A stretch of DNA of 30,188 bases. It comes from a virus. Where the stretch lies: IMG/VR virus record IMGVR_UViG_3300024333_000019, positions 1 to 30,188 of that record. One strand, given 5' to 3'. The position numbers and the translations under genes were made by a program. Of the stretch, positions 1-26,401 are shown piece after piece. The notes beneath the pieces are model-generated. The model saw nothing but the letters and a program-made list of their open reading frames with translations, made no database searches and was not told the origin of the DNA. Position 1 is the stretch's first letter. Every line of letters starts with the position of its first letter.

Positions 1-3000
1 TCAGCTCCAGCGCTATCATATAGTTTCATATTATATGGGTCGATACTGGTGTAGGAGCCGTCGGTGATGACAGAACCAGAAGGCATAATAAGATTTCTCA
101 AATTTGAGCCGTCTAAAAAAAGATTTCCTCCCATATATATATCGGCAGTCATACGAGTCCAACTAAACATAGCATTTGAATTTTGTCCTGAGCCCTCCCA
201 ATCTATGAATACAGCCTCCCCATTTTTATCATAAAGTTTCCTATTATACGGATCTATGCTGGTGTAGGAGCCATCTTTAATTAACGCTCCAGAACCCATA
301 ACAATATCATCGGCATAAATCGTCTGGATTGTGGTATCAATATCCTTTGTAAAGTGCCACCTTGAGTCCCCGCTGTTGTAATAGAGATATGCGTTCACAT
401 TATCAGCCAAAGAGATTAACGCATTATCGGAAGCATCGGTTAAAGCTCTTGTTGATGGAAGGAACCACCCGTCTCCGCTACTATCTTGGAGTTCTGAATA
501 GAATCTTGCTTGACCTGTGGTTTGAATAGAAAGCCCTATGTTAGTTCCAGAACCATTCCAGTCAAAAGTGCAAGTTGCATTACTATTAAGAAGCTGTCTG
601 TTAAACGGGTCTATACTGGTGGCGGAGCCGTCGGTAATAGTATAACTTCCGGAAGTAAATTTCATATTAGCTGAACCCATGTCTAAGGTATGTAGCGGTG
701 TTACATCACCATTATAATCCCAGTCTAAAGTAGGAAGTCCTGAGCTGTCGTATAAGTATCTGTTGTATGGGTCTATGCTGGTGTTGGAGCCATCTTTAAT
801 CTTACTCCCACTTTCAAATCTTAATTCTCCACCCTGCATGTTCAAATACTTGTCTGATGGTATTTTGAGAGCACTACTATCGTAGAAAAACATTAATCCG
901 CTAGAAGAATAAAAATTAACATACCCGCTTTCATCGGCAGCGTAGAAACCAGATGTTCCCCAATAAAGTTTCCCTGCGTCCAGATACAGATTCCCGCCGC
1001 CAGAACCTGTTCCATCTTTAAGATAAATATGCTGTCCGTTTGCGGCAAATGGGTCGGATACCAATTTAACTCCGAGATTAGCGTCGAGTTGGAGCATTTC
1101 CCATGAACCGCCAGAAACACTATCTGAAGAATACAAACTCATTACGCCATTGGCTCCTGCGGATATGTAGGCATTACCAGATGAACCTATAGTTAAGTAT
1201 CCACTACTCCAACCTGCTGTCTCATTGCCTGAAGAATCGTGGAGGGTTCTGCCATACGGATCTATACTAGTGTAGGAGTTCCCGACAATTACATCGCCAG
1301 AGGCGTTAAAATCAATGTCATACCCGCCAGTAGTATTCCCAAGAGCGAGGGTCTGGGCGAGGGTTTCACCACCACCACCGCCTCCACCGACTTCTGATTC
1401 AACCCCTGCCGAAGTAAGTTTGTATAACTTATCGTCTGACTTGAAGTATATCTTATTGTGATTAGCGGCAGGGTTAGCAGGTGTAGTAATCTGCAAGAAG
1501 TCAACTGCTGTCGGGTCAATCTCTCCATCCACCGTCAGCTTACCTGCGAAATATCCATCCTTGAACTTATGAGTGCTATCACCCAAGTCAATATCGTTGT
1601 TCGTGGTCGGGGCCAACTTCCCATCAGTTAAAGTAATCTGCTCTGTTGCACCAATATTGAAATCTATTCCGTTTGTCCCGCCTCGCAAAAGAAGGCTGTC
1701 CGTTGCCGTAGTCGCATCGCTCTGTATGCTGAATATCGTGCCTGAATGTAATATCTGCCCATCCTGCCCAGCCCCGAATGAAAGACAACCTGCCGCACCA
1801 GAGGTTCCATCAACTAAAATCTGAATTTCACCGTCCGAGACTATCTTCAGCCTTTCCGTGCCTGTGGTAGTCGTAGTATCTGCGGCTGTGTAAAAGGACA
1901 TTTGAGTAGCCGTATTAAATAGAGCTGAACCGCCACCAAAAGATACACTATTTGCTGTGCTGCTACTTGTCGCAAGAAATATCCCGACTGGTTCTTCAGC
2001 GTTAGTGTAGTGGTAAGCACCCACTCTTGCTGATTTATTTGTTGCGTTAGTACGGGTTACTGCTACGTTGTTATCCGCCCCAACAACTATGCTCATTACG
2101 CCAGAAGCCACATCTAACATCGCTGAATTGGAAGGGGCTGTCGTGCCTATGCCTACAAGACCCGCATTGGTAATCCTTACTCGTTCTGCTCTTGTTGTGG
2201 ACAAGTTCGGGGTTGTTTCAAAGGTGATATAAGTTCCTGTTGCTCCAGCGTTAAATGTTTCTGCGGCTAATATGCCTATGACCCCATTAGAAGAAGATGG
2301 GAATGCTGCCCCCGTATATCCCCTTCCAAAAATAGCCGATATATAATCCCCCGATTGAACTACTGCGGGACTGGCGATTGTTCCTCTTGCTCTTCTCCCA
2401 ACCGTGCCTCCTGAATAATTTGTGTTTGAATATACATCAGAATAAATGGCGACCTCATCTTGCTTAACAACATGAAGCGAACTGGTTGGACTCGTCGTTC
2501 CTATTCCAACATTGCCATCTTTTATAGTTAAAGTATCTGCCGCACCATAAGTTGAAAATGTCATTCTTGCGGTAGAACCTTCATCCATTGTATAGATTCT
2601 GCCTACTTCTGTTGAAGTGCTCTCAACGAACTTTATCTGTATGCCTGCCCCAGTGCTTGAACCTGAAGTGCGAAGTCTTAAAAATTCTTTATCAGTATTA
2701 CCTGCGGCATTATAGATTTCCAATGGAGTGGAAGGACTTGTTGTTCCTATGCCAACATTGCCTGACCCAAGAATAGTCATTAATTCTGTTGCATAGTTCT
2801 TAAATTGGAAAACAGGTTCAGTAGAACTGAGTGCTTGAGCGGCAGTTCCACTTTTCTTTGCCCCAGCAAAAACAAGGGCGGGGGCTGTAACTGTAGTATC
2901 GCCAACTGTGCCTCTAAAGTAAAATGCAGTTGCATTAGAGTCGCTCAATCCATCAATTCTTAGACCGCCTGCTGTTCCATTATAAGGGAGCACCCCACCA

Positions 3001-3854
3001 TAAACATTTGTAGGGTAGAGGTCCGTCATACCGTGAGCAACATCAGCATCGGAGAGATAAAAACTCCCGTCCTTCAATTCCAATTTTTCTTGTGGACTTG
3101 TCGTTCCTACACCGACAAAACCAGCATTAGTAATTCTCATTCTTTCGGCAGGGGTTATAGAACCGTCGGGAGTTGTAAGGAAAGTTAGATTTCCCGGCAT
3201 ATCACTTGAGCCAGGTGTAGCATCTACTTGGCTTAATATTCTTGCTCCGTTTACTCGGGAAGTTCCACTCCAGCCTTGAAAGTTAATAGCCCCAAGTGTA
3301 TCTCCGCTTGATACTATCGTAGGAGACGCTATTGTTCCTCTTGCCTTCAAAAGATTGAGTGCGGGAGCAGTAGCACCAGTATCAGATGCGGCAATAATTC
3401 TTTGAACTGTTGAAGAGTCGGTAGCAATATCAAGCGAGTCCGAAGTAGGAGCAAGAGAAACACTTGGCGAACCACTTGTTATGGTCACCTTTTTGTTCGT
3501 CGTATCAAAGATTACAAAATCTGTTCCGTCCGCTTGGGCGATATTGATTGCAGTAGTGGAATTTGCGGAGGGACGGATGTCGTTTCCCGCAGTGAGATTA
3601 AGATTGCCCGTCATCGTGTTATCGCCGTTTAAGTGGAGAGAGAGCGGATCGGTTTCCGCTGATACAATGGTCAAATTATCTATTGTATCGAGCGCTTTTT
3701 GAACATCGGTGTCCGCTGGAGAAAGATTCCCGTTAAAATTAGTCGTGTCAGTTTCTATCTCCGCGGCGAGAGAATACACCGCCTGAGAATCCGCAAACGC
3801 AGGCTGACAAGAAATGAGAAGAAAAGGAATTGCAAGAATCCAGAGTTTTTTCAT
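1..3854 (-). CDS. Fibre/adhesin-like repeat protein with signal peptide (3' end outside window)
   Basis: I translated this frame by hand and it stays open from an ATG at 3854 to the left edge, about 1284 residues with no stop. The start is fixed by an AGGAAAGG ribosome-binding site and an ATGA overlap with the upstream methyltransferase. The N-terminus (MKKLWILAIPFLLISC) is a charged then hydrophobic signal sequence. LISC at residues 13-16 fits a lipobox, and AFA|D at 21/22 fits signal peptidase I instead. Four VG(I/V)GTT(S/A)P motifs lie near residues 246, 366, 448 and 565, a run of seven glycines near 827, and five TSIDPYxR-type repeats from about 862 to the edge. VGIGTTSP repeats are typical of long tail-fibre and adhesin proteins that often end in an S74 intramolecular chaperone; any such end lies outside. 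I infer a fibre or surface adhesin. A leader peptide is unusual for a virion fibre, so a surface-expressed protein is possible. Confidence 0.8.
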   Translation of the reverse strand, partial: MKKLWILAIPFLLISCQPAFADSQAVYSLAAEIETDTTNFNGNLSPADTDVQKALDTIDNLTIVSAETDPLSLHLNGDNTMTGNLNLTAGNDIRPSANSTTAINIAQADGTDFVIFDTTNKKVTITSGSPSVSLAPTSDSLDIATDSSTVQRIIAASDTGATAPALNLLKARGTIASPTIVSSGDTLGAINFQGWSGTSRVNGARILSQVDATPGSSDMPGNLTFLTTPDGSITPAERMRITNAGFVGVGTTSPQEKLELKDGSFYLSDADVAHGMTDLYPTNVYGGVLPYNGTAGGLRIDGLSDSNATAFYFRGTVGDTTVTAPALVFAGAKKSGTAAQALSSTEPVFQFKNYATELMTILGSGNVGIGTTSPSTPLEIYNAAGNTDKEFLRLRTSGSSTGAGIQIKFVESTSTEVGRIYTMDEGSTARMTFSTYGAADTLTIKDGNVGIGTTSPTSSLHVVKQDEVAIYSDVYSNTNYSGGTVGRRARGTIASPAVVQSGDYISAIFGRGYTGAAFPSSSNGVIGILAAETFNAGATGTYITFETTPNLSTTRAERVRITNAGLVGIGTTAPSNSAMLDVASGVMSIVVGADNNVAVTRTNATNKSARVGAYHYTNAEEPVGIFLATSSSTANSVSFGGGSALFNTATQMSFYTAADTTTTTGTERLKIVSDGEIQILVDGTSGAAGCLSFGAGQDGQILHSGTIFSIQSDATTATDSLLLRGGTNGIDFNIGATEQITLTDGKLAPTTNNDIDLGDSTHKFKDGYFAGKLTVDGEIDPTAVDFLQITTPANPAANHNKIYFKSDDKLYKLTSAGVESEVGGGGGGGETLAQTLALGNTTGGYDIDFNASGDVIVGNSYTSIDPYGRTLHDSSGNETAGWSSGYLTIGSSGNAYISAGANGVMSLYSSDSVSGGSWEMLQLDANLGVKLVSDPFAANGQHIYLKDGTGSGGGNLYLDAGKLYWGTSGFYAADESGYVNFYSSSGLMFFYDSSALKIPSDKYLNMQGGELRFESGSKIKDGSNTSIDPYNRYLYDSSGLPTLDWDYNGDVTPLHTLDMGSANMKFTSGSYTITDGSATSIDPFNRQLLNSNATCTFDWNGSGTNIGLSIQTTGQARFYSELQDSSGDGWFLPSTRALTDASDNALISLADNVNAYLYYNSGDSRWHFTKDIDTTIQTIYADDIVMGSGALIKDGSYTSIDPYNRKLYDKNGEAVFIDWEGSGQNSNAMFSWTRMTADIYMGGNLFLDGSNLRNLIMPSGSVITDGSYTSIDPYNMKLYDSAGA
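30..1285 (-). repeat. Five degenerate TSIDPYxR repeats inside the fibre-like gene
   Basis: A 21-nt unit encoding roughly (S/N)-x-T-S-I-D-P-(Y/F)-(N/G)-(R/M) recurs at about 37-57, 251-271, 608-628, 769-789 and 1260-1280 in plus coordinates. Each copy is usually preceded by (K/T)DGS and followed by a (K/Y/Q)L(Y/L)(D/N) stretch. Spacing is irregular (about 160-490 nt), so these are protein-level repeats, probably one per beta-helical or triple-stranded fibre segment, and not a simple tandem DNA repeat. Confidence 0.75.
2130..3120 (-). repeat. Four VGIGTT(S/A)P protein repeats in the fibre-like gene
   Basis: The segments near 3094-3118, 2730-2758, 2486-2512 and 2133-2160 (plus coordinates) each encode (N/G)-x-V-G-(I/V)-G-T-T-(S/A)-P, usually followed by L-E-hydrophobic or S-L-H-V. 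Two of them follow an ERMRITN/ERVRITN-type strand. The motif recurs in long fibre proteins of phages and environmental bacteria and probably marks repeated fibre modules. Confidence 0.7.
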
Positions 3855-20028: not shown

Positions 20029-20622
20029 TTATCTATTTCTTACAAAACACATCTCAGTAGCTTTTTTTTTGGAACAATGAAACACAAATCTATAAATCCT
20101 TTTTATTTTTACAACGTCAAGAAGTGTCGGAAGAATCCACTCCCGAAGCCCCCAATCAGTAATTTGTCCTACCACATCACCAATCGTAGGTATTCCACGA
20201 TAAAAAGTGTAAAAATGTTGCTCAGAAATTCCATTAAGACAGTTCACTCCAACGATTGGAAAGGTAAAAACAATTAGTCCATTGTCTTTTATCATCTCAA
20301 AAACCAATGGGAAAAATTTATCTGGATATCCATAGCTATCAATATCAATGATGTCGTATTTTTTTCTATCAGCCCTGAGTTGATAAATAGCATCGAAAGA
20401 ACTTCCAAATTGCTCCTTTGTCATTGCCGTAACTGTGCAATCCAACCCGGTATAAAATTCTGTTAAATTTCCCTTTCCGGCAAAAACTTCAAGAACATCG
20501 CTTCCAGACTGGATGAACTTTTCAAGTTGTGCAATTTTTTCTTTTGGATGGTGGTAATCGTCATCGTTTAATCCTTGTTTTAGCCTTGTTTTTTTATGCG
20601 ATTCTGCTGAATGTCCAGTCAT
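20029..20622 (-). CDS. Class I SAM-dependent methyltransferase-like protein
   Basis: The 197-residue product shows SDVLEVFAGKGNLTEFY (motif I, residues 41-57), TVTAMTKEQFG (motif II region), KYDIIDIDSYGYPDKFF (post-I/motif IV-like, D-x-D-x-x-G-x-P) and DNGLIVFTFP. The D-x-D-x-x-G-x-P element resembles the catalytic region of some RNA/DNA N-methyltransferases such as Trm1-like enzymes, but this is only a similarity. The ATG follows GGAG. The gene begins 25 nt after the structured element at 20647-20722, which would lie in its leader RNA. Confidence 0.72.
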   Translation of the reverse strand: MTGHSAESHKKTRLKQGLNDDDYHHPKEKIAQLEKFIQSGSDVLEVFAGKGNLTEFYTGLDCTVTAMTKEQFGSSFDAIYQLRADRKKYDIIDIDSYGYPDKFFPLVFEMIKDNGLIVFTFPIVGVNCLNGISEQHFYTFYRGIPTIGDVVGQITDWGLREWILPTLLDVVKIKRIYRFVFHCSKKKATEMCFVRNR

Positions 20623-20646: not shown

Positions 20647-20722
20647 CCTTTGGCGGCTCGGTTGCTTACGCTCCCTAGCACCGATAATCTCAGACGTCAT
20701 TATCGGGAGACACCACCAAAGG
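20647..20722 (-). ncRNA. Structured leader-type element A
   Basis: CCTTTGGTGG (plus 20713-20722) pairs with CCGCCAAAGG (20647-20656) as a 10-bp closing stem with one G-U. Inside, CCGATAAT/ATTATCGG makes an 8-bp hairpin with a 10-nt loop, and CTCCC/GGGAG offers a competing outer stem. The minus-strand motifs GGTGT after the 5' arm and CGAGCC before the 3' arm recur in elements B and C. It lies between the 53-aa gene stop and the methyltransferase start, so it may be a cis-regulatory leader or a small RNA. It has no tRNA T-loop. Confidence 0.5.
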
Positions 20723-20732
20723 TTCCTACAAG

Positions 20733-20894
20733 TTACTTAGTAAACATCTCCTTCGGATACCAACCGGAAGAAACATAGGTTAGTCCATTGTTGACTGCAT
20801 TTGTCTCAGTTGTTTTTTGATAATCGCACCCTCTCCATATAGCACAACAAATAACAATGCCAACGACGATGGCGATAACTTTTTCTGTGCTCAT
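20733..20894 (-). CDS. 53-aa membrane or secreted miniprotein
   Basis: ATG 20894 has AAGGAG upstream and encodes MSTEKVIAIVVGIVICCAIW, a hydrophobic span with two cysteines, followed by RGCDYQ and a polar tail ending YPKEMFTK. It reads as a signal-anchor or small membrane protein. CDYQ after the span could be a membrane-proximal cysteine, though a lipobox is not convincing. Function is unknown. Confidence 0.6.
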   Translation of the reverse strand: MSTEKVIAIVVGIVICCAIWRGCDYQKTTETNAVNNGLTYVSSGWYPKEMFTK

Positions 20895-21232
20895 CTTTTC
20901 TCCTTTGTTTGTTGTTGAATATTCCTACGGAATGGCTCGGCAGAAGGCATTGGCCATTTGACTTTCCGACCCGTCTGCACGGTACGTTGAGCAGCATAGC
21001 TCGGTTGGGATTGTCGCCACGAGCCATCCGTAAGAAATTGGTGGGGAAGGCAGGATTCGATACCTGCATAAGCACTAATTGCTGAGAGTTCTATGTACCG
21101 CCTCATCTTTTGAGCATTTGGCGACTGCGCCCTACAGCCTAGTTCATCTTGGTGCTTATCTCCAAAAGGAGGAGCGGACTTTCTGAGCATCAGCAATCGT
21201 TTTGTAGCGTCTATCTTCCGCCACTTCCCCAT
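20891..21232 (-). CDS. Doubtful 113-codon frame over the structured RNA region
   Basis: A frame starting MGKWRKIDATKRLLMLRKSA and ending by ATGA overlap with the 53-aa gene is open for 113 codons. It runs straight across two near-perfect inverted-repeat structures (21039-21230 and 20922-21036). It lacks a close ribosome-binding site, with only AGGA about 14 nt upstream, and shows no domain. I keep it because the length and ATGA geometry could be real. The base-pairing pattern is better explained by RNA structure. Confidence 0.25.
   Translation of the reverse strand: MGKWRKIDATKRLLMLRKSAPPFGDKHQDELGCRAQSPNAQKMRRYIELSAISAYAGIESCLPHQFLTDGSWRQSQPSYAAQRTVQTGRKVKWPMPSAEPFRRNIQQQTKEKR
20922..21036 (-). 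ncRNA. Structured element C with 17-bp closing stem
   Basis: TTCTTACGGATGGCTCG (plus 21020-21036) pairs with CGAGCCATTCCGTAGGAA (20922-20939) over about 17 bp with one bulged base and one G-U. The enclosed 80 nt contain smaller pairings such as CTGC/GCAG and GGC/GCC. On the minus strand the arms share GGATGG and (G)AGCCATTC with element B and AGCC with element A. It sits 28 nt before the start of the 53-aa gene and directly abuts element D. It is either part of a tandem RNA set or an mRNA leader. Confidence 0.5.
21039..21230 (-). ncRNA. tRNA-like element with CCA end and large insert
   Basis: On the minus strand GGGGAAG-TG-GCGGAAGATAGACGC opens like a bacterial tRNA acceptor strand, positions 8-9 and a short D-arm (GCG/CGC). 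The element closes with GCAGG-TATCGAAT-CCTGC (T-arm-like, loop one base longer than the usual TTCGAAT), CTTCCCC (7-bp acceptor complement), A and CCA. GATTGCTGA/TCAGCAATT (9 bp, one G-U) sits where an anticodon arm would be, but about 100 nt are inserted in its loop. No anticodon can be assigned. It is a degenerate, insertion-bearing or tRNA-mimic RNA, and not a standard tRNA or tmRNA. Confidence 0.45.
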
Positions 21233-21244
21233 GTTAAAGAACAG

Positions 21245-21319
21245 TCCTGCGAATGGCTAGCAGGTTGCATCTGCATATAGCTTTGTTCCCCTCGCTAGGA
21301 GGGCACACCATCCGCAGGA
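21245..21319 (-). ncRNA. Structured element B with 12-bp closing stem
   Basis: TCCTGCGGATGG (plus 21308-21319) pairs with CCATTCGCAGGA (21245-21256) over 12 bp with one G-U. The interior holds CCCTC-CTAGC-GAGGG and a GCTA...GCAG/CTGC...TAGC stem. The CTAGC loop of the first can also pair with GCTAG in the second, a possible kissing interaction. It fills the 86-nt gap between the replication-protein gene and element D. Its arms resemble element C. Confidence 0.5.
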
Positions 21320-21326
21320 AATCATG

Positions 21327-21968
21327 TTAAAAACACCAACACTTTTTACCGTCTGGAAGTTTTCCAGTTCCATTGCAAGCACTACAGGATCCGCTTGGTT
21401 TCCTTTCGGTGTGGACATACGCGGCCACCGGCCTCTCTACGCGGTTCAACCAATTTACAAATCTCCGCTCCGTCACATGATACTTTCTTACCTCACACCA
21501 CGCCTTACATTTTCCAAATTCTCTGTCAACATCGATCCCTTTGTATGTCGGGTTTGTTTTGAGTTTTTCAAAGAAATGCCCGTTGTTCCCGATCTTTTCC
21601 TTCTCCTTCTCTTTCTTATTCTCCTTCTTCTTCTCTTCTAGGAACCTATTGGGCAATATCTCACTTTCGTAAGTAGGCGAATTTAAAAGACTTAAAGTTT
21701 TGTAGTTACCATCCTCAGAGCACTTTAGCTTCGGAAATCGTTGCAAAAGTGTATCAATGGCGTGTTTTACAAGGTGTTTGCGCGTCTTTATACCGTATCT
21801 TAGACGGTAGTATCGCGGGTCCACCGGCGCTTGATGGTGGGTCATGTGGCAGGTGTAAATTATCAAAACATACATCAATTTTTCAAAGTCTGAGCAATCC
21901 AAAACCCACCTTGGGTCGGAGCCAAGTTCTTCCGTTAAAGGAGCAAACCTACCTTTTATCCGAGCCAT
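21327..21968 (-). CDS. Replication initiator/helicase-loader-like protein
   Basis: From ATG 21968 (GGGAGG upstream; a longer frame to 22013 lacks one) the product is 213 residues. The N-terminus is a winged-helix-like segment (DPRWVLDCSDFEKLMYVLIIYTC, RYGIKTRKHLVKHAIDTLLQ). A highly charged Lys/Glu linker follows (EEKKKENKKEKEKEK). The C-terminal part has YKGIDVDREFGKCKAWCEVRKYHVTERRFVNWLNRV, typical of phage replication or primosome-loader proteins. A zinc-knuckle tail CSACNGTGKLPDGKKCWC closes it. It probably recruits the host helicase or marks the origin. It lies with recT and the exonuclease. An exact family was not confirmed. Confidence 0.7.
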   Translation of the reverse strand: MARIKGRFAPLTEELGSDPRWVLDCSDFEKLMYVLIIYTCHMTHHQAPVDPRYYRLRYGIKTRKHLVKHAIDTLLQRFPKLKCSEDGNYKTLSLLNSPTYESEILPNRFLEEKKKENKKEKEKEKIGNNGHFFEKLKTNPTYKGIDVDREFGKCKAWCEVRKYHVTERRFVNWLNRVERPVAAYVHTERKPSGSCSACNGTGKLPDGKKCWCF

Positions 21969-22251
21969 TTTCGAGCCTCCCATTTTTTGAGGCGTTACAC
22001 CTAAAGCAAACACACCTTAGGTTTGAGGGTTCGTCTAAACCTCCGGCAACTCTAGGAATAATGTGATCTATGCTCGCGTAATACTTGACCGGTTGCCACC
22101 AATCGTGGCTTATTAAAAAATCTTCCCACTCTTGCGGCTCTTTCACCCTTCTCTGAAAAGACCAAACCTCGATTCCGCACATAGAGCATTTGTATTCGGC
22201 TTTTTTAAAAATTTCTTCCCTTTTTTTATTAAAACATCCTTTCCACTTCAT
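21949..22251 (-). CDS. HNH endonuclease
   Basis: The 100-residue product contains CSMCG near residue 22 and ASIDHIIPRVAGGLDEPSNLRCVCFRCNASK, the HNH beta-beta-alpha-metal core (DH, then N, then C-x2-C-x2-N) with paired zinc cysteines. Such small free-standing HNH enzymes are common in phages, as homing endonucleases or accessory nucleases in packaging or replication. It overlaps the following gene by 20 nt. A weak GGGTGA lies before the ATG, which follows the structured element at 22270-22346. Confidence 0.85.
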   Translation of the reverse strand: MKWKGCFNKKREEIFKKAEYKCSMCGIEVWSFQRRVKEPQEWEDFLISHDWWQPVKYYASIDHIIPRVAGGLDEPSNLRCVCFRCNASKNGRLENGSDKR

Positions 22252-22269
22252 AAGTCACCCAATTATTGC

Positions 22270-22346
22270 TCCCGCCTCAGGCGCGGACGGACCAAGGAGA
22301 ACCGCCCCGGATCGGTCCTATGAAAACCGAGCGCCGTTTAGCGGGA
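22270..22346 (-). other. GC-rich structured spacer before the HNH gene
   Basis: The 99-nt gap between recT and the HNH gene contains nested pairing on the minus strand: TCCCGC/GCGGGA (6 bp) outside, GGCGC/GCGCC (5 bp) inside, and a TCGGT/ACCGA hairpin. The remaining segment can form GGACC/GGTCC. It is much more GC-rich than its neighbours. It could be a terminator-like or cis-regulatory RNA. No known riboswitch consensus was recognised. Confidence 0.4.
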
Positions 22347-22350
22347 AGCA

Positions 22351-23328
22351 TTAGTTCCTTTTTGTTCTTTTTTTAGGTTCTTCACCTTCAATCTTCGGCC
22401 CTTCCGGATTTTCAGGGTCCGGATAATTCCTTTTGTGCTCGTTAGCACGCTCCCTCGCTTCCGCTTCCCTCTCAGAGCGAAGGATTTCCTCTTTTTCTTC
22501 GTCGGTGAGATCCCCTGCGCCCACTTCAACGACTTGGGCCGGGGCATTTTCAGGGGGCGGCAAATAATTTGTCTCGTCCGGGAGCGCGGCCATGTCCTTA
22601 TCGATCCTCGTCTTGGTCGTTTCGTCGGTCGAGATCGCGCGTTGCACGCTGATCGAAAGCGTGAGCAGTTTTGCGATTCTTTTCACGGCAGTTTTTTTCG
22701 CCATTTCCTCGTACCAGTTCGTCCAAGGCGAGTAAGGGGAGCTCCCCGCCCTTGACGCTTTCCGAACCTTATCGATCTCTTCTTTCGCGAGAAACACGAA
22801 GATCTTCTCGTTTGCGACAAGGTTCTTCGCGGTGCAGTACACACCAATTAAATCCCCGCGGTCTCCCTTGGCCGGCACATGAACGAGCACAGGATTGAGC
22901 CCTTGCGCGTACTCGAAGTGATCGTTCTTGTAGACGCACTCAGTCGAGAGGATTACCGCTTTCCCCGCGTTATTCACCAGTTCAATGATCCCACGGTAGC
23001 CCATAATGAACTGGACTTCCTTGACGACTGTTCCGTCCCTTTTCTTGTTGTTGAACGGGACGTAATAACAATGTCCGAGGTTCCCCGGTTCGAGCCCGTT
23101 TTGCACCGTCTGGATCACCGCCGCGATCAGGGACGCTTGTGACGCGTTCCGTATATCGGGGTTCGCCTTGATCGTATTTGCCATGACCCCGATCATGCGC
23201 TTGAGCGTGATATGCTCCGGGAGCACCGCCGCGATCTCATCCTCCCGCTCCTTAAAATACTCCCACACGGTCGTGATCTGTTTCCTCGCGACCTCCGTCT
23301 TTGCTTTCTCCATCGCCGTTTCTGACAT
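22351..23328 (-). CDS. recT: RecT-family single-strand annealing protein
   Basis: The 325-residue product has the RecT core: RMIGVMANTIKANPDIRNASQASLIAAVIQTVQNGLEPG, YYVPFNNKKR, EVQFIMGYRGIIELVNNAGKAV, and the WYEEMAKKTAVKRIAKLL helix. The C-terminus is a long acidic/basic low-complexity tail (EEKEEILRSEREAEARERANEHKRNYPDPENPEG). RecT proteins coat single strands exposed by a partner exonuclease and anneal them. The partner is the YqaJ-type gene 0.6 kb upstream. AGGAGGG precedes the ATG. This is the phage's own recombination or replication-repair pair. Confidence 0.93.
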   Translation of the reverse strand: MSETAMEKAKTEVARKQITTVWEYFKEREDEIAAVLPEHITLKRMIGVMANTIKANPDIRNASQASLIAAVIQTVQNGLEPGNLGHCYYVPFNNKKRDGTVVKEVQFIMGYRGIIELVNNAGKAVILSTECVYKNDHFEYAQGLNPVLVHVPAKGDRGDLIGVYCTAKNLVANEKIFVFLAKEEIDKVRKASRAGSSPYSPWTNWYEEMAKKTAVKRIAKLLTLSISVQRAISTDETTKTRIDKDMAALPDETNYLPPPENAPAQVVEVGAGDLTDEEKEEILRSEREAEARERANEHKRNYPDPENPEGPKIEGEEPKKRTKRN

Positions 23329-25878: not shown

Positions 25879-26401
25879 AGGTTTTCTCCTTATTGTAAAA
25901 ATGGGTTACATTCTTGATCCAGTTGCGGTTAAGACCCTGAGGATCGTTCTCCGCGCCCAACGGAGCATACGATCTGGAAAGGAAAGAAATAAAATCTTCC
26001 CCTCCGTTCCAAAGTCTCAACCGCTTCTGGATTGTTTGAACACACCCTTTTCTGCACTTTTGAGGAGTTCGCCCTGTGCAGTACGACGGGGCCAGTATCC
26101 CGTAAGGATGGTTCGTGGAGTTTTCGGCCAGAAAAATCGCGTCAGCAAGTTTCTCGATATCCGGGGAAGGAAATGTTTGGGCAAGTGCGGAAAAAGAAAA
26201 TGAGAGCAAAAGAAAAATTGAAAGCGGAGCTGTTTTTATTACGGACTGAGAAATTCTTTTTGCTTTATTGACTTGATCGAGCGCCCACTTTATTTGCCGA
26301 CATTTTTGGGAGCAGGTTTTTCGCGGGAAGAAAACATTTTTTAGGACTTTGATTGGAGCGCCGCAAACAACGCATGTTTTCTGTTCGTAATCTCTCTCCA
26401 T
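25808..26401 (-). CDS. Zinc-finger / membrane anchor / lysozyme-like fusion
   Basis: From ATG 26401 (GGAGG 8 nt upstream) the product is 197 residues. The N-terminal zinc module has C10, C13, C30 and C34 (CVVCG...CSQKC). A hydrophobic span at residues about 57-74 ends SALAQ. The C-terminal domain begins DIEKLADAIFLAENSTNHPYGIL and contains CRKGCVQTIQKRL, FISFLSRSYAPLGA and GLNRNWIKNV. The latter resembles small secreted lysozyme-like proteins of phages and uncultivated bacteria with an E-N/E-G near the start and a Y-(A/C)-P...LNR-x-W-x-K-N-V end. I infer a membrane-tethered (SAR-like) muralytic protein or host-surface effector. No catalytic residue is proven. Confidence 0.65.
   Translation of the reverse strand: MERDYEQKTCVVCGAPIKVLKNVFFPRKTCSQKCRQIKWALDQVNKAKRISQSVIKTAPLSIFLLLSFSFSALAQTFPSPDIEKLADAIFLAENSTNHPYGILAPSYCTGRTPQKCRKGCVQTIQKRLRLWNGGEDFISFLSRSYAPLGAENDPQGLNRNWIKNVTHFYNKEKTYENSVPRSLKGKKVLPRSRKANR

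Follow-up and report, generated by a model that had tools for sequence, protein, structure and literature searches.

A probable non-decoding tRNA-like RNA in an intergenic cluster of a phage genome, with relatives in unrelated phages

What do four closely spaced stems encode in a phage genome that has little room for anything but genes? The window, by which we mean the whole phage record of 30,188 bases, is densely coding on the minus strand and contains genes for a terminase, a portal, a head protein, RecT, a YqaJ-type recombinase, and HNH and LAGLIDADG endonucleases. Its longest convincing non-coding stretch is a gap of 432 nt (20895-21326) between the gene at 21327-22013 and a 53-aa ORF, other long gaps in the automatic gene call being portions of bigger genes (e.g. 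positions 1-3854, a 1284-aa open-ended protein). The first-pass annotation had described four stems, A to D, in this region, and we found all of them in place, best read on the minus strand, the same as the genes, with the spacing that it had noted between B and D (14 nt) and between D and C (2 nt):

20647-20722, minus strand: element A, with an 11-bp closing stem including a G.U pair, an 8-bp hairpin and another one capped by GUAA, lying just upstream of the gene at 20029-20622; fold z-score -3.6
20733-20894, minus strand: the 53-aa ORF, a probable small gene with an AAGGAG ribosome-binding site, situated between C and A
20920-21036, minus strand: element C, with a closing stem of 8 + 10 bp flanking a 1-nt bulge and a 3' half similar to B; fold z-score -3.9
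21039-21230, minus strand: element D, with a 7-bp stem, the weakest of the four; fold z-score -1.7
21245-21319, minus strand: element B, a three-way-junction-like stem-loop with a closing stem of 13 bp; fold z-score -3.4

These z-scores were obtained by folding each element alone, on the minus strand, against 200 dinucleotide shuffles. A further compact two-hairpin element (22262-22352, minus strand, z -3.2) lies between RecT and the HNH gene.

A near-identical contig, IMGVR_UViG_3300045016_000055, shows 99.9% identity over 16 kb and diverges at window position 20030; it ends 40 nt beyond that point, in unrelated sequence and short of A to D. Because the divergence falls exactly at the stop codon of the gene at 20029-20622, this gene and its upstream region may form a recently exchanged module. 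None of the relatives sought via the adjacent methyltransferase-like gene, RecT, the terminase and the portal carries the A-D cluster.

Element D, which the first-pass annotation had ranked weakest and whose likeness to a tRNA it had missed, reads along its 192 nt as a tRNA-like RNA with an acceptor stem, a D-arm, a 139-nt insert, a T-arm and ACCA:

21224-21230, minus strand: 5' acceptor strand GGGGAAG, forming 7/7 pairs with 21043-21049 and present in the unconstrained MFE structure
21207-21223, minus strand: TG plus the D-arm GCG GAAGATAGA CGC, without G18-G19, with 16/17 identity to the element in contig L068 and similar to those in L085 and L100
21068-21206, minus strand: insert of 139 nt that replaces the anticodon arm; in the MFE structure, GATTGCTGA/TCAGCAATT close it
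21050-21067, minus strand: T-arm GCAGG-TATCGAAT-CCTGC, with a 5-bp stem and an 8-nt loop
21039-21049, minus strand: 3' acceptor strand CTTCCCC, pairing with the 5' acceptor strand, plus the ACCA end

Folding D without constraints already gives the tRNA-like form as the MFE structure, in which the insert makes up a closed arm, and the D-arm is of the tRNA-Leu type. Save for one extra loop base, the 3' end resembles those of tRNA-Ser and tRNA-Pro genes in phages. Within the window, D is the sole match to a T-arm followed by an acceptor strand and CCA, for which shuffles expect 0.01, and its acceptor-plus-D-stem match, taken alone, has a chance probability of 4.7%. No anticodon arm (5 bp, 7-nt loop, U33) was found at the D-stem, the best candidate having 3/5 pairs and no U33. 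ARAGORN and the Rfam tRNA model, both at default settings, missed D, and our searches found no contig homologous to its region.

Scanning for the T-arm, acceptor and CCA of the D type also matched L014, an unrelated contig fetched for another reason, which has the same 8-nt loop and layout and was likewise missed by ARAGORN and Rfam. Viral contigs in IMG/VR were scanned with the pattern GGTRTCGAATCC-N10-ACCA, yielding 55 loci, in many of which the T-stem is complete and a 7-bp acceptor partner lies 71-220 nt upstream, and the T-arm search produced about 20 further D-like RNAs in unrelated phages. Members of this family are recognised by a 5-bp T-stem with the loop T[A/G]TC[G/A]A.., a 7-bp acceptor partner, and a D-stem 2 nt after it, all of which D possesses. 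T-stem, acceptor and D-stem occurred together at 19 places in 943 kb, a count aided by the T-loop used for fetching, with the acceptor, the D-stem and the outer T-stem lying outside that pattern; six permuted loops gave 0-1 places, and with shuffled acceptors the count averaged 1.4 and never exceeded 5. The IMG/VR pattern had not selected L014 or L025, nor two of the three copies arranged in tandem in L095. Similarity in the D-arm, which played no part in member selection, links D to some of the same RNAs: beyond the window, the best match to its 17-nt D-arm is in L068 (1 mismatch), with L085 and L100 at 3 mismatches, each then having the same type of T-arm. Among the seven best D-arm matches, three lie directly upstream of such a T-arm, against a background of 0.9% per position.

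Nearly all members lack a canonical anticodon arm, which was present in 1 of 20 members as compared with 22 of 29 ordinary phage tRNAs in a similar test. Several tRNA-sized members have loops of 4-5 nt or 8 nt in place of the anticodon loop, and a plausible anticodon loop is kept in L062 and L103. The D-loops of members are short and mostly without GG, their T-loops have one extra purine, and both changes coincide in most members. A D-loop without GG is not universal, because the group with GGAAGGAC-type D-loops (L014, L025 and L095) retains the dinucleotide. In tRNAs, the GG of the D-loop docks with the T-loop, and we infer that the extra T-loop purine would substitute for the docking G.

Three members, L062, L085 and L097, lie within tRNA clusters. 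The contig of L095, where no tRNAs were recognised, contains on its plus strand (L095:1740-2222) three tandem tRNA-like elements with GGAAGGAC-type D-loops, at 1740-1934, 1944-2066 and 2076-2222 (195, 123 and 147 nt). An unannotated member of 77 nt is found in Escherichia phage Schickermooser between tRNA-Asn and tRNA-Thr (L107:1833-1909, near 56.8-56.9 kb of the phage genome), its anticodon arm being a hairpin with an AAGA loop, and a near-identical 77-nt member, likewise unannotated, occurs in Klebsiella phage ZCKP1 (L108:2455-2531); both phages are Phapecoctaviruses, and the element belongs to their tRNA cluster. Schickermooser also has, at L107:1646-1730, an Rfam tRNA match of 39 bits that is unannotated and was missed by ARAGORN. 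The CAGG/CCTG form of the T-arm, a common variant, had no matches in 257 Gb of cellular genomes. On sequence comparison, this is a family of predicted tRNA-shaped RNAs so far found in phages only, and mostly without a usable anticodon. A literature search, with most subscription journals outside its scope, returned no description of such RNAs, and an earlier description is possible.

We favour, with a probability of roughly 0.6, the reading of D as a phage-encoded, non-decoding tRNA-like RNA that belongs to a family spread across many unrelated phages. The first-pass annotation's suggestion of small RNAs that are processed and belong to a phage 'tRNA cluster' is supported for D. What can be said of the transcription, processing and function of D is read from its sequence features. 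The acceptor stem, the T-arm and CCA are the parts of a tRNA that maturation enzymes read. D keeps these three parts together with a tRNA-Leu-like D-arm, its elbow is altered by the 8-nt T-loop TATCGAAT and a short D-loop without GG, and the structured 139-nt insert takes the place of the anticodon arm. Retention of the acceptor, T-arm and CCA alongside loss of the anticodon would fit an RNA that RNase P and CCA enzymes mature and that then lives long without decoding. Most likely, the host RNase P and CCA enzymes would trim and protect D as they do a tRNA, and the outcome would be a stable small RNA with the variable insert as its working part; T4 rnaC may do likewise. A broader proposal, to which we give somewhat less than even odds, is that D and arrays of the L095 type represent an unrecognised phage family of tRNA mimics that do not decode and whose elbow is altered, an 8-nt T-loop being paired with a short D-loop that mostly lacks GG; the tRNA top half would act either as a decoy for host or defence proteins that bind tRNA or as a scaffold that supports maturation and stability, leaving the anticodon arm free as payload. 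For the insert of D itself, a decoy for tRNA-binding defence proteins and a scaffolded regulator are candidate ideas.

Three other readings of D or of the gap around it were weighed. D might be a functional tRNA with an intron or an unusually long variable arm, decoding normally after splicing: at a threshold lowered to 80%, ARAGORN calls it a tRNA-Glu(CTC) interrupted by an intron of 109 nt, its D-arm is like that of tRNA-Leu, and L062 and L103 retain plausible anticodon loops. However, the anticodon stem proposed by ARAGORN is poor and goes undetected at default settings, both the T-loop and the D-loop of D are non-canonical, and 19 of 20 members are without the canonical arm; in the tRNA-sized members an intron is not the reason, because they have the size of a tRNA and yet the aberrant loops. 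We regard this reading as unlikely. A tRNA gene decaying without function could retain the same parts for some time, and the degenerate D-loop, the T-loop with one base too many, the missing anticodon and the overlapping open frame are all consistent with a pseudogene. Nevertheless, many unrelated phages show the T[A/G]TCGAAT loop and the AAG-type D-loop again while their acceptor, D and T stems are intact, and one contig (L095) has three copies in tandem; independent decay would not converge, so the same 'defects' recurring in many phages argue against a pseudogene, which we consider improbable. The overlapping frame itself could mean that the whole gap is protein, either as the frame from ATG 21325 to TGA 20891 (minus strand), broken by one in-frame amber codon, or as the 113-aa ORF at 20891-21232 that forms part of it. 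This frame fills the gap, begins 1 nt past the upstream stop, overlaps the next start as ATGA and has a single stop among its approximately 144 codons. A conserved protein frame over 20891-21232, the outcome that the first-pass annotation had set against structured RNAs, was not seen: there were no homologues in three collections (viral contigs, phages and 84,980 genomes), no protein family match and no frame-specific codon signal, the codon score being -0.018, without frame preference, whereas known genes average 0.20. The codon score alone is not decisive, because some homology-supported genes likewise score low (0.05-0.06 in the weakest). Also against a protein, C is far more structured than its synonymous shuffles (z -3.1), and TAG is an ordinary stop in this phage record, where five genes terminate with it and stop-codon recoding was rejected. 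We conclude that the gap is more likely non-coding, and that a protein filling it is an improbable reading.

For A, B and C, we put at slightly less than even the odds that they are chance stems, or local leader or processing hairpins, without a common identity. The first-pass annotation held stems of this length to be rare by chance, and they do lie above chance, but their rarity was overstated: among 168 strong stems of the window, B ranks second, and A and C about 20th. The 432-nt gap folds with z -3.2, which is only fourth among 70 windows of equal size (3 of the 69 others fold equally well). The strongest stem of the window, with 16 bp, or 22 bp with its outer part (25925-26024, minus strand, z -5.6), lies within a conserved protein gene; it exceeds synonymous shuffles in structure (z about -5.9) and is absent from the L009 homologue of its host gene, which aligns gap-free. 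That this phage has a stronger, non-conserved stem inside one of its protein genes favours chance or local origins for A, B and C, as do the rank of the gap, the failure of searches to find any contig covering them, and the lack of significant similarity of A to the others. Against these stand the folding of A, B and C, each of which beats nearly all of its own shuffles, within a gap that has no coding signal, and the likeness of B and C, which covers both arms and includes a G.U pair. The arm motifs said to be common to the elements hold weakly for B and C (one of six pairs reaches P 0.008, or about 0.05 when corrected), whereas A shares none significantly with B or C, and its homology to either was rejected. 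The folding of A, B and C is only modestly unusual for the phage in question. None of the three matches the tRNA-like descriptor, even in its relaxed form. The B/C arm pattern had 38 matches in viral contigs, every one of which was attributed to chance or coding sequence, and roughly half of which represent one DNA cytosine methyltransferase motif. The identification of B as an S6-S18 (Chlorobi) ribosomal protein leader was rejected (Rfam 16.9 bits, E 3.6, versus a gathering score of 47.4). B and C probably add further structured, non-coding stretches to this intergenic cluster, with A separate, and each of the three may be a companion RNA, a leader or a chance stem. Overall, the observation in the first-pass annotation was partly confirmed and its interpretation partly supported.

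Genes of the D type escape standard annotation, including in cultured E. coli phages, and the Phapecoctavirus member on E. coli makes them directly testable. If they yield stable RNAs, part of the phage 'tRNA clusters' would be explained by something besides codon supply, a tie to the long-unexplained T4 rnaC would be established, and candidate tRNA decoys or tRNA-scaffolded regulators acting during phage infection would be available for testing.

Compared with known systems, D has in common with canonical tRNAs of the tRNA-Leu type the 7-bp acceptor stem, TG at 8-9, a D-stem GCG/CGC, the 5-bp T-stem and the CCA end; it differs in its 8-nt T-loop TATCGAAT (instead of the 7-nt TTCRANN), in having neither G18-G19 nor an anticodon arm, and in its 139-nt insert. 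A tmRNA likewise has tRNA-like ends and a long insert replacing the anticodon arm, but D lacks a recognised tag frame as well as a G3.U70 pair, and its D-arm is an ordinary stem-loop. Assignment to tmRNA was rejected (ARAGORN -m gave none, with overlapping spurious calls at a 70% threshold only), as was a permuted tmRNA (Rfam 7.8 bits versus a cut-off of 47). The tRNA-Pyl is like D in its altered T-loop and in its short D-loop, which lacks G18-G19; unlike D, which has 2 nt between acceptor and D-stem and no anticodon arm, it has 1 nt there and a working CUA anticodon (PMC7609411). Phages are absent from this 2020 review on non-canonical tRNAs (PMC7609411). T4 rnaC (species 1 RNA), located beside the T4 tRNA genes, has about 140 nt and, like D, no anticodon arm; it resembles D also in having a tRNA T-arm (CCGGGTTCGAATCCCGG) near the 3' end and an acceptor-like end that is partly paired. 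It is a late RNA confirmed by Northern blots, with no known function (PMC9697503; PMC12685909). The two differ in that rnaC has a canonical 7-nt T-loop, TTCGAAT, and an imperfect acceptor stem, whereas in D the T-loop has 8 nt (TATCGAAT), the acceptor stem is perfect, the D-arm is Leu-like and the CCA is encoded. By likeness, T4 rnaC is the nearest known precedent for D.
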